Assembly: GCF_026616195.1 (NCBI RefSeq)
Contig: NZ_JANHDH010000006.1
Location: 1-64,000, forward strand
DNA: 64,000 nt
Reading direction: 5' to 3'
Origin: Haloarchaeobius amylolyticus
GTDB lineage: Archaea; Halobacteriota; Halobacteria; Halobacteriales; Natrialbaceae
Of this stretch, positions 1-3,153 are shown in pieces. Positions within the stretch are counted from its first letter, which is position 1. Every line of letters starts with the position of its first letter. The notes below the pieces were generated by a model. It was not told where the DNA came from and ran no database searches. It saw only the letters and a program-made list of their open reading frames with translations. The position numbers and the translations under genes are program-made.

Positions 1-293
1 CCCCACGGCACGGCGATGTTCGCGAACTCGACGAACCAGGTCGTCTGGCCCATCCACAGGAACATCGACTCCAGCGGGTTCCCGTTCGCACCAGCCGCGT
101 GCACCAGGTAGCCGCTCGAATCGAACGGCTTGACGATCTTGTCCCAGCCAGCGTGCAGGAACGCATACCCCATCATGAGCCGCAGCGACAGCACGAACCA
201 CGCACTCAGGCTGTGTGCCTTCCCCGTGACGTGGATACCACCGAGTCTGCTTTCGAACGTGTTGCTTCCGGACTTGAGTTCGTTGGTTGCCAT
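1..293 (-). CDS. DoxX-family membrane protein (partial, N-terminal part only)
   Basis: The gene runs off the left edge of the window; about 97 N-terminal residues are visible, starting at the ATG at 293. The visible part holds a soluble N-terminus of about 28 residues, then a membrane segment (SAWFVLSLRLMMGYAFLHAG) and the start of a second hydrophobic region after an amphipathic linker. The arrangement (short N-terminus, R-L-M-M-G-Y-A-F-L-H-A-G-W-D-K) matches DoxX/DoxD-like small membrane proteins, a family that includes the small subunit of thiosulfate:quinone oxidoreductase. The family is broad and no substrate can be inferred. A TATA-like box lies at 336-342 on the minus strand, with several GAGAAC half-sites just upstream of it, so the gene may be regulated. 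Confidence 0.7.
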   Translation of the reverse strand, partial: MATNELKSGSNTFESRLGGIHVTGKAHSLSAWFVLSLRLMMGYAFLHAGWDKIVKPFDSSGYLVHAAGANGNPLESMFLWMGQTTWFVEFANIAVPW

Positions 294-335
294 TGTGATC
301 GTCCTCTTACACCTGAACAGACGCCCCACCACAAC

Positions 336-342
336 ATATAAA
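336..342 (-). promoter_or_regulatory. TATA box of the DoxX-family gene
   Basis: On the minus strand the sequence CTTTATATG sits about 43-50 bases before the ATG at 293. This places transcription start near 312 and gives a 5' leader of roughly 20 bases. Confidence 0.5.
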
Positions 343-393
343 GAGAACGTAATTCTCGGTTCTACAGAACTGAGAACTGGTACCGCGAGAACT
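343..393. promoter_or_regulatory. Cluster of GAGAAC/GTTCTC half-sites (putative operator)
   Basis: Directly upstream of the DoxX-gene TATA box there are at least five copies of GAGAAC or its complement. GAGAACGTAATTCTC at 343-357 has inverted GAGAA/TTCTC arms, GTTCTACAGAAC at 359-370 is a palindrome with a 3-base centre plus one, and direct copies of GAGAACT lie at 372-378 and 387-393. Position and symmetry suggest an activator or repressor site. No regulator can be named. Confidence 0.35.
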
Positions 394-588
394 GCCCAAA
401 CCGATAGACTGCAGCCACCTCAATGTGCAAGTAGTGTGAGAACAGCCCGCACTGTTGGGGATGTCATTCTACGTATCTGAGAACGGTGTAGAGTCAGGTG
501 AACGCCAGCGAGGAGGGACCGGTGACACTCACGAGCGAAGCGACTGGGTGGGGCGGGACTCGAACTCACTCGTAACGAAGTTGCTCGC

Positions 589-663
589 TGTTCGACTCCC
601 ACAGTCACCGCTCGTGTCCTCACTGACGTTCGGACAACGAGCGGAAGGGGCGGGACTCGAACC
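589..663. repeat. Palindromic unit 1 of the tRNA-derived array
   Basis: The outer arms are TTCGACTCCC and GGGACTCGAA. The inner stem is CCGCTCGT (608-615) with ACGAGCGG (637-644). Bases 608-664 are repeated without change at 851-907. Confidence 0.55.
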
Positions 664-721
664 AGACCGAGACGGTCCGGGGTGCTCGCGTCGCTGCGCT
701 CCCGGGCTGCGGCTCGGAGGG

Positions 722-791
722 CTCGAATCCCTTTCTCGTTCTCATGGCTCCCTATCGGTCGCCAGAGAACGGAAGGGGCGGGACTCGAACC
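722..791. repeat. Palindromic unit 2 of the tRNA-derived array
   Basis: The outer arms are TCGAATCCC and GGGACTCGA (one mismatch). The inner stem is CGTTCTC (737-743) with GAGAACG (765-771). Its inner stem differs in sequence from units 1 and 3 but is also fully self-complementary. Confidence 0.55.
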
Positions 792-831
792 ACGGTCGGA
801 CGTGCTCGCTGACGCTGCGCGAGACCTCCCT

Positions 832-906
832 GATTCGAGTCCCGCAGTCGCCGCTCGTGTCCTCACTGACGTTCGGACAACGAGCGGAAGGGGCGGGACT
901 CGAACC
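832..906. repeat. Palindromic unit 3 of the tRNA-derived array
   Basis: The outer arms are TTCGAGTCCC and GGGACTCGAA, and the inner stem CCGCTCGT (851-858) pairs with ACGAGCGG (880-887). Bases 851-907 are identical to 608-664 over 57 bases, giving a direct repeat with a 243-base offset. The right arm doubles as the T-arm/acceptor 3' end of the tRNA-like gene. Confidence 0.55.
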
Positions 907-972
907 ACGCGAAGCCTTGTATTGTCCGTCGTGGACGACGCCACGACGCGCTCTACCCTGAGCTACCCTTCC
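886..972 (-). pseudogene. Degenerate tRNA-like gene (chimeric tRNA remnant)
   Basis: On the minus strand the ends GGAAGGG and CCCTTCC form a perfect 7-bp acceptor stem, followed by TA and a 4-bp D stem (GCTC/GAGC). The rest is not canonical. The D loop is only six bases. The anticodon-arm region forms CGTCGTGG/CCACGACG with a six-base loop and has no U33. The T stem pairs at only two of five positions (CGTGG against CCCGC). It looks like a true tRNA 5' end joined to a recombined 3' end. No amino-acid identity can be given. Confidence 0.45.
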
Positions 973-1033
973 TCGGCCGTCCCTACTCACCTGACAGCAA
1001 AGTACACATTGGTACGCGCGTCGAATGGAACGG

Positions 1034-1040
1034 TTTTTAT
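1034..1040 (+). promoter_or_regulatory. Promoter box of the XapX-like gene
   Basis: TTTTTAT lies 28-34 bases before the ATG at 1068, the spacing expected for a leaderless haloarchaeal transcript. Confidence 0.5.
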
Positions 1041-1067
1041 CGGCACCCGCCCGAGTGAATTGACGCT

Positions 1068-1268
1068 ATGAACGTGACACAGGTCTTCCTCGCGACGCTC
1101 ACCGGGTTCACCGTGGGCGCACTCTTCAAATTCGTCGAGGTCCCCATCCCGGCGCCGCCGAACCTCGCGGGCGTGATGGGCATCGTCGGCATCTTCCTCG
1201 GGTTCAAGGCGATGTCGGAGACGGGCGTGACGGTCGGCGACGTGATGCAGGCGCTCGGGCTGGCCTGA
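1068..1268 (+). CDS. XapX domain-like small membrane protein
   Basis: This is a 66-residue protein with two hydrophobic segments (about residues 6-24 and 33-48) separated by a proline-rich turn, VPIPAPPNLAGVMGI. That layout, with a P-x-P-A-P-P turn between two helices and a short polar tail, is that of the XapX family of very small bacterial and archaeal membrane proteins, whose role is unknown. The promoter box 28 bases upstream supports the chosen ATG. It is read convergently with the succinate dehydrogenase operon. Confidence 0.65.
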   Translation: MNVTQVFLATLTGFTVGALFKFVEVPIPAPPNLAGVMGIVGIFLGFKAMSETGVTVGDVMQALGLA

Positions 1269-1311
1269 TACCGGGAAAACGAGAGTCAGTCGAATCGCGG
1301 CCCGGGGTCCG

Positions 1312-3153
1312 TCAGTAAGAGCGGACCTTGGGCTCGTACTTCTTGTTCTCGCCCTCGAGGATGACCGGCCGGTAGAAGATGGTCGGTTCGCCCTCGTGCC
1401 ACGAGATGAGCGTGTGCTTGAGCCACTCCTCGTCCTTGCGTTCCTGGTGCTCCGCGCGCCAGTGGGCGCCGCGGAACTCCGTGCGGACGAGCGCGCCGAG
1501 CGTGATGGTCTCGGCGATGTCGATGAGGTTGCGCGTCTCGATGGTGTGCTGGAGGTCGGTGTTGAACGTGCGCGAGGGGTCCTCGACGTACACGTCCTGG
1601 TAGGCCTCGCGGATCTCCCGGATGTCCTTGAGCGCCTGCTTGAGGCCCTCCTCCTCGCGGAAGACGTTGACGTTCTTCGTCATCGTCTTCTGGAGCTTGG
1701 CACGGATCTGGGAGTGCTGGATACCCTCGTCCTTCTCCAGCAGGTGGTCCACGCGGTCGCGCTCGGTTTGCACGGCGGCCTCGACGACGCTGTTGGCGTC
1801 GGTCGCGACCGCTCCGCCGTCGGCGACGGCGTCGGTCTGCGGGCCGGCCATGCCGACCTCGCCCGGCTGGTAGGGCAGTTCGGTCTCGTCGTACTCGATG
1901 TCGCCGCGCTCGCCGGTCTCGATCTCGGCCTCACCGAGGTCGGCGCCGGCGGCGTGGCGGCCGGCGCGGGCGCCGAAGACGATGAGCTCGGGCAGCGCGT
2001 TGCCGCCGAGGCGGTTGGCACCGTGGACGGAGACACACGCGGTCTCGCCGGCCGCGTAGAGGCCGTCGATGCAGGTGTGGCCGTTCTCGTCGGTCTCGAT
2101 ACCACCCATCTCGTAGTGCTGGCCGGGCTTGACCGGCATCGGCTCCTTGAGCCCGTCGACGCCCTCGAAGTCCTCCGCGAGGTGGAGGATGTTCTCGAGG
2201 CGGTCGACGATGCGCTCCTCGCCGAGGTGGCGCATGTCGAGCATGACGTACTCGTCCTCGAAGCCGCGGCCCTCGTTGACCTCGGTCAGCTCGGCGCGCG
2301 AGACGACGTCGCGGGAGGCGAGCTCCCCGTCGTTCTTCGCGTAGCCGTACTCGAACATGAAGCGCTCACCGTCGGCGTTGTAGAGGATACCACCCTCGCC
2401 GCGGACACCCTCGGAGATGAGGACGCCCGTGCTGGGCAGGGTGGTCGGGTGGAACTGGACGAACTCCATGTCCTCCAGCGGGACGCCCGCGCGGTAGGCC
2501 ATCGCGTAGCCGTCACCGGTACAGGCGACCGCGTTGGTCGTGTGGTCGAACGCCTGGCCGGGGCCGCCGGTCGCGAGGATGACCCCGTTGTTGGCCTTGA
2601 AGCCCGCGATCTCGCCGGACTTGACGTCGTAGCCCACGAGGCCGTGACAGCTCCGGTCCTCGGGCGTCTCCTCGTCCGTGACGGCGAGGTTCATCACGTA
2701 CCACTCGTCGTACACCTCGATACCTCGCTTGACGACCTGCTCGTACATCGTGTGGAGCAGGTGGTGGCCCGTCTCGGCACCGGCGTAGGTGGTGCGCGGG
2801 AACGACAGGCCACCGAAGGGGCGCTGGGAGACGCGGCCGTCGTCCTCGCGGGAGAACGGCATGCCCCAGTGTTCGATCTGGAAGACCTCGTCGGGGGCGT
2901 CCTGCGCCAGCGTCTCGATGGCGGGCGCGTCACCGAGGTAGTCCGAGCCCTTCATCGTGTCGTAGGCGTGCAGCTCCCAGTCGTCGCCCTCGCGAAGGGC
3001 CGCGTTGATGCCACCCTCCGCCGCGCCGGTGTGCGAGCGGACCGGGTGGAGTTTCGTGACGATCGCCACGTCTGCACCTTCTTCGTGGGCGGCGATGGCG
3101 GCGCGGAGGCCCGCTCCGCCGCCGCCGACCACGAGCACGTCGTGTTCGTACAT
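1312..3153 (-). CDS. sdhA: Succinate dehydrogenase flavoprotein subunit
   Basis: This 613-residue subunit oxidises succinate to fumarate and passes electrons through covalent FAD to SdhB. The N-terminal dinucleotide-binding motif VVGGGGAGLRAAIAA and the R-S-H-T-G-A-A-E-G-G-I-N segment, whose histidine carries the flavin, are present. The substrate-binding segment HPTTLPSTGVLISEGVRGEG and the C-terminal helical domain ending in PKVRSY are typical. It is the last gene of the sdhCDBA operon, starting 10 bases after sdhB stops. It acts in both the citric acid cycle and the respiratory chain. Confidence 0.97.
   Translation of the reverse strand: MYEHDVLVVGGGGAGLRAAIAAHEEGADVAIVTKLHPVRSHTGAAEGGINAALREGDDWELHAYDTMKGSDYLGDAPAIETLAQDAPDEVFQIEHWGMPFSREDDGRVSQRPFGGLSFPRTTYAGAETGHHLLHTMYEQVVKRGIEVYDEWYVMNLAVTDEETPEDRSCHGLVGYDVKSGEIAGFKANNGVILATGGPGQAFDHTTNAVACTGDGYAMAYRAGVPLEDMEFVQFHPTTLPSTGVLISEGVRGEGGILYNADGERFMFEYGYAKNDGELASRDVVSRAELTEVNEGRGFEDEYVMLDMRHLGEERIVDRLENILHLAEDFEGVDGLKEPMPVKPGQHYEMGGIETDENGHTCIDGLYAAGETACVSVHGANRLGGNALPELIVFGARAGRHAAGADLGEAEIETGERGDIEYDETELPYQPGEVGMAGPQTDAVADGGAVATDANSVVEAAVQTERDRVDHLLEKDEGIQHSQIRAKLQKTMTKNVNVFREEEGLKQALKDIREIREAYQDVYVEDPSRTFNTDLQHTIETRNLIDIAETITLGALVRTEFRGAHWRAEHQERKDEEWLKHTLISWHEGEPTIFYRPVILEGENKKYEPKVRSY

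Follow-up and report, generated by a model that had tools for sequence, protein, structure and literature searches.

Tandem cassettes behind haloarchaeal tRNA genes, probably a family of very small non-coding mobile elements

We find that an array of alternating T-arm sequences in a haloarchaeal genome consists of three consecutive palindromic cassettes, and that cassettes of the same anatomy lie behind tRNA genes in many other Halobacteria. The array is best explained, and in our judgement probably so, as the product of three successive insertions of tiny non-coding mobile cassettes (about 75-160 bases), members of a Halobacteria-wide family that targets T-arm-like DNA, usually at a tRNA 3' end. 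The DNA analysed (hereafter the window) is the initial 64 kb of contig C6 in a haloarchaeal genome of 4.6 Mb.

Anatomy of the array

The array occupies positions 546-885 of the window on the minus strand, with a tRNA-like gene standing directly in front of it, without a gap. Read along the minus strand, the cassettes follow one another in the order 885-771, 770-643 and 642-546.

886..972, minus strand: tRNA-like host gene with acceptor stem GGAAGGG/CCCTTCC, a tRNA D-arm, a hairpin where the anticodon arm would stand, and a T-arm containing a bulged U (RF00005 score, relatives, alignment)
771..885, minus strand: cassette 1, with hp1 at 853-885, reverse T-arm at 832-845, core A at 790-833 and forward copy at 771-790 (sequence, fold, core A pattern match)
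643..770, minus strand: cassette 2, with hp1 at 738-770, reverse T-arm at 720-733, core B at 662-719 and forward copy at 643-662 (sequence, fold)
546..642, minus strand: cassette 3, with hp1 at 610-642, reverse T-arm at 590-602, core C at 566-589 and forward copy at 546-565 (sequence, fold, core C family)

Every cassette is thus built of four parts in constant order. It opens with a hairpin, hp1; a T-arm copy in reverse orientation comes next, then the core, and last a forward copy of the host tRNA 3' end spanning the T-loop to the discriminator. The stem of hp1 is strong and closed by a GAAC..GTGA motif; it is identical in cassettes 1 and 3, and cassette 2 has a diverged GACC..ATGA form. The cores belong to three conserved types, each enclosing a variable hairpin, and the window contains one of each: core A (TCAGGGAG..GACCGTGG), core B (GAGCCGCAGCCCGG..CCCCGGACCGTCTCGGT) and core C (AGCGA..GAGTGA). 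The forward copy, comprising T-arm and acceptor strand, reads GTTCGAGTCCCGCCCCTTCC, and the far end of the array reads CCCCACCC. Cassette 2 is 87% identical to an element behind a tRNA-Lys gene on contig C3 of the same genome.

The first-pass annotation had described T-arm sequences of alternating orientation, and our mapping agrees, with four forward and three reverse copies between 546 and 905. In plus coordinates, the GGGACTCGAA-type copies, which are the tRNA 3' end on the minus strand, lie at 546-565, 643-662, 771-790 and 886-905, and the reverse T-arm copies at 590-602, 720-733 and 832-845. The repeated part does reach into a tRNA acceptor end, as had been proposed, running through the acceptor 3' strand CCCTTCC, and one ordinary integration event is indeed insufficient for such a set. 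The claim of a constant gap of 48-50 bases with variable spacers also holds, with one exception. A near-constant gap is present from each reverse copy to the next GGGACTCGAA core (49, 46 and 49 bases) and a variable one from each forward copy to its palindrome partner (24, 57 and 41), but the palindrome that folds is the variable-gap pair, while the constant gap contains hp1. The predicted fold of each cassette consists of hp1 and a long hairpin pairing the reverse with the forward T-arm.

The tRNA-like host gene family

The array abuts the gene at 886-972, which had been regarded as degenerate. We see no decay in it; on sequence comparison, it is a member of a conserved haloarchaeal family of tRNA-like genes. 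It scores 39.6 bits with the Rfam tRNA model RF00005 in a genome search (gathering threshold 29; relatives 43-44 bits), despite which an Rfam scan of window positions 1-3000 listed nothing, no tRNA included. Relatives were detected in 87 of 292 Halobacteria genomes and 26 of 77 genera; many of these matches cover only the 3' part, and nearly all flanks then read hold the whole gene. The loci of the family are the window gene (886-972, minus strand), L219 and L221-L250.

Family members share an identical acceptor stem (GGAAGGG/CCCTTCC), the tRNA D-arm and a T-arm with the bulged U, the latter preceded by GGCTTC or a close variant. Where a tRNA has its anticodon arm, they carry one or two hairpins of variable length and sequence, and the genes measure 83-142 bases in all. 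The host gene reaches the cloverleaf score of a canonical tRNA, and a 7-base anticodon loop on a 5-bp stem and an unbulged T-stem are lacking throughout the family. Many of the genes have T/A-rich, promoter-like sequence ahead of them, and several carry cassettes while others are bare. A member is present in G190, presumed to be Haloferax; genus names of the numbered genomes rest on matches to named loci. The published list for H. volcanii holds 52 tRNA genes, a typical archaeal set (PMC2584109).

Placement and distribution of the cassettes

A search of the window's own genome with the array returned several other matches, the strongest all in tRNA flanks. Reading these and other flanks, we found the same anatomy, always on the tRNA strand, 3' of tRNAs for Leu, Gly, Glu, Lys, Ser, Val, Asp, Met, Arg, Thr and others. 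Similar units, which the first-pass annotation had suggested seeking elsewhere, are therefore abundant in this and related genomes, each with the 3' end of the tRNA in front of it. The single intact source tRNA that it had envisaged does not exist, since every unit copies its own host.

This host specificity was quantified in three genomes of the genus by scoring copies that match at least 12 of the 14 bases of the T-stem 3' strand plus acceptor strand within 400 bases. Such copies are found downstream of 62 of 124 tRNAs and upstream of only one of the 124, and downstream T-arm copies of non-host tRNAs amount to 0.3%. The identity between copy and host has sharp limits: it begins at T-loop position 54 and drops at the tRNA 3' end. 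The outcome is a direct repeat matched to the host, about 19-21 bp long and running from the T-loop to the discriminator.

Core A sites lie just 3' of an intact tRNA in 30 of the 34 cases in the first set read and in 57 of 60 in the second; the host tRNAs are of very diverse identity, with the matching end copied in most cases. The remaining four sites of the first set are L190, behind a tRNA 3' fragment, and three copies at a protein gene; the remaining three of the second are behind a bare tRNA 3' fragment. Core C sites L096 and L098 also follow tRNA 3' fragments, beside integrase-like sequence read by eye. The cassettes found after a tRNA 3' fragment only (L096, L098, L190, L288, L298 and L304) probably mark the distal boundary of an integrative element that entered between a tRNA and its cassette.

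By pattern search, core A is present in 80 of 145 Halobacteria genomes and 40 of 59 genera, with up to 15 copies per genome. Core C with both T-arm ends occurs in 26 of 391 Halobacteria genomes; in the named collection its genera are Haloferax, Halogeometricum, Halobellus, Halohasta, Halonotius and Halorubrum. Reversed-pattern controls gave no matches in either the 391 or the 145 genomes, ruling out chance palindromes. Seven bacterial matches to core C have no tRNA beside them and seem fortuitous. Neither core A nor core C is found in IMG/VR, and nothing in a phage collection resembles the region, which speaks against a viral carrier. The cassette family, of palindromes roughly 100 bases long, is widespread in salt-loving archaea and apparently undescribed; the open-access literature yielded no published description of it or of the tRNA-like gene family.

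Several further arrangements were seen along the way. A longer core insert with two extra hairpins (GCGCGGTTCG..CGAGAACCGCG and CGAACGGCG..GCCGTGAGC) is common to cores behind different tRNAs, as if modules had been exchanged (L035, L044, L138, L144, L131 and L136). A simpler relative of the cassette, whose inverted repeat takes in the acceptor strand and not the T-loop and which ends in GGGACTCC plus the host end, is found in the flanks of tRNA-Ala and tRNA-Arg(GCG) of the window's genome and of tRNA-Arg(TCT) of G215 (L032, L061, L058, L151). At locus L069 (G000:C3:597345-599400), additional tRNA genes of unusual character (Lys, Lys, Gly, Glu, Ala) are clustered, separated by cassettes, on a 754-kb contig that may be extrachromosomal. 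At L171 (G215:C2:909038-926601), atypical tRNA genes (Arg, Asn, Asp, Gln, Glu, Gly, Leu, Lys, Pro, Ser, Thr, Tyr) are densely packed within 17 kb, perhaps the tRNA array of a provirus or plasmid.

Origin of the cassettes and relation to known systems

A sign of insertion comes from genome G064, the only known case outside tRNA genes. Three cassettes with a 102-bp period stand there where a protein gene ends; the last codons of the gene, GGTTCGAGCCGGTCTGAGC, resemble a T-arm, and this 19-bp sequence is directly repeated in four identical copies. The orthologous gene in G182 and G392 has an empty site; these relatives are 76-78% identical, and the absence is inferred across species. Related species likewise differ in cassette presence, number and core type, and within one species no movement between strains was seen. 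Among orthologues of the genus, tRNA-Gln(TTG) is followed by a cassette only in G328, with no clean empty site for comparison as the downstream flanks are too diverged to align, and three species differ at tRNA-Ser(CGA), where the core is of type C, B or A and two of them share one hp1. Behind tRNA-Ser(CGA) of Haloferax there are one or two cassettes with hp1 reshuffled: between H. elongans and H. larsenii the two hp1 modules have traded places in front of the same two cores. An inverted core follows tRNA-Val(CAC) in the window's own genome. Tandem repeats can also grow through unequal crossing-over, without transposition.

Inner core stems vary freely in sequence and keep their pairing (224 of 248 pairs Watson-Crick across 56 distinct stems). 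The reverse arm tracks the host: its mean match is 6.23 of 9, compared with 5.42, and exceeds the value in every one of 10,000 permutations. Outer-arm bulges occur in 17-27% of hairpins in the larger sets and in as many as about half of those in the first set. Of 83 elements, 59 fold better as the tRNA strand than as the complementary one, although control stretches are biased likewise, less strongly, and the purine-rich internal loops of the tRNA strand indicate that one strand is favoured for folding.

Such conservation and strand bias could also reflect a cellular role, and we considered an element working at the RNA level, in which hp1 and the T-arm hairpin of a read-through tRNA transcript would serve in 3'-trailer processing, termination or regulation, the inverted T-arm sequestering the copied tRNA end and so avoiding competition in tRNA folding. 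The constant location on the tRNA strand and the better fold of that strand speak for it, as does an excess of G.T over A.C pairs of 20 to 4 in the first outer-arm set, mostly at one recurrent position. This excess is missing in the inner stems (6 to 4) and in the larger outer-arm sets (12 to 8 and 4 to 3); because G.T pairs hardly exceed A.C mismatches in these sets, nothing points to the tolerance of wobble pairs seen in RNA helices, and with near parity everywhere but once the counts are a weak means of deciding between RNA and DNA. About half of the tRNAs are without a cassette, orthologous tRNAs differ, and the protein-gene insertion, empty in relatives, argues for insertion at the DNA level over a tRNA-specific RNA function. 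We therefore regard an RNA-level origin as improbable and infer that the hairpin acts as DNA.

Spread without any dedicated enzyme, the palindromes being moved and multiplied by replication template switching and by recombination through T-arm sequence common to tRNAs, would account for the exchange and inversion of core modules, for a reverse arm that follows the host, and for the finding that every core ends in such common T-arm sequence (core A sites read). The precise anatomy including hp1 is hard to obtain in this way, as is a whole cassette at a protein gene offering merely a short T-arm-like match, and we consider this origin unlikely too. Several independent nested integrations of tRNA-targeting viruses or plasmids, of which only the ends remain, are far-fetched as a source of the arrays. 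It is true that tRNA 3' ends are usual att sites (PMC9897764, PMC3119063) and that several cassettes follow a tRNA 3' fragment, some beside the integrase-like sequence. However, remnants would not all be expected to retain hp1, the reverse T-arm and shared cores in one fixed order across 40 genera; this conserved anatomy already contradicts such a reading, and the integrative elements beside L096, L098 and L190 do not end in a core.

Under the preferred reading of repeated cassette insertion, a putative enzyme acting in trans would cut or recombine T-arm-like DNA (GGTTCRANTCC), and the target from T-loop to tRNA end, about 20 bp, would be duplicated, leaving the tRNA intact. Later cassettes would enter at the copied ends or recombine through them, and such recombination would allow arrays to grow and shrink and hp1 and core modules to be reshuffled. 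The hairpin, with its purine-rich internal loops and bulges on the tRNA strand, would be the recognition structure at the DNA level; its host-matched reverse arm may stem from template-switch correction of imperfect palindromes or may have a part in target choice. Neither a mobilising enzyme nor an autonomous relative was found, and no larger autonomous element with the same ends was seen. Tyrosine integrases are possible mobilisers, although at the protein-gene locus duplication of the target is a better fit than attP exchange.

The nearest described elements are SMR-A and the PATEs of Haloquadratum (PMC3119063). SMR-A of Haloquadratum walsbyi shares with the cassettes a length of about 110 bp, a palindromic and gene-less structure, many copies, a strong target preference and a haloarchaeal host, with no mobiliser identified for either. 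Its own terminal inverted repeats, insertion without target duplication and targeting of IS605/PATE palindromes (PMC3119063) set it apart from cassettes whose inverted arm follows the host, which have 19-21 bp direct repeats, and whose core A sites are mostly behind intact tRNAs in both sets. PATEs, of IS605 type, are also non-coding haloarchaeal elements with near-terminal palindromes, and neither the target duplication nor the tRNA targeting of the cassettes has been described for them (PMC3119063). Viruses and plasmids integrated by tyrosine integrases resemble the cassettes in using the tRNA 3' end, leaving it intact and producing a direct repeat, whereas they bring an integrase, kilobases of cargo and one repeat; the cassettes are gene-less, at 75-160 bp too small for an integrase gene, carry a reverse copy and form arrays.

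Casposon and CRISPR-type Cas1 insertion takes place at tRNA 3' ends or the leader and duplicates 14-37 bp of target, a likeness in both target and duplication. Cas1 (PF01867) is found in two of eight cassette-carrying genomes and absent from the other six, including the most copy-rich one. A Cas1 or casposase mobiliser is thus unsupported and a Cas1-type enzyme not needed, although one may possibly have acted earlier or from outside.

Integron gene cassettes have a hairpin end site of variable terminal structure with bulged bases, and are added in tandem at one entry site. The haloarchaeal cassettes may be compared with them in layout and possible working, not in membership, and differ in being gene-less, with host-matched arms and many entry sites. 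A doubtful but conceivable extension is an archaeal recombination system that recognises the tRNA-strand hairpin of a gene-less cassette as folded single-stranded DNA, the reverse T-arm helping to choose the target via base pairing. If true, tRNA 3' ends would be the archaeal counterpart of the integron entry site, with self-assembling cassette arrays.

Over half of the haloarchaeal genomes sampled carry cassettes, which follow a large fraction of the tRNA genes. They bear on how tRNA ends came to be preferred by incoming foreign DNA, on the content of the intervals downstream of archaeal tRNA genes, and on annotation errors in which extra T-arms are taken for tRNA fragments. The host gene of the window in turn reveals a conserved tRNA-like gene without a normal anticodon arm. 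Haloferax carries cassettes and is genetically tractable, and both their mobility and the enzyme are therefore directly testable.
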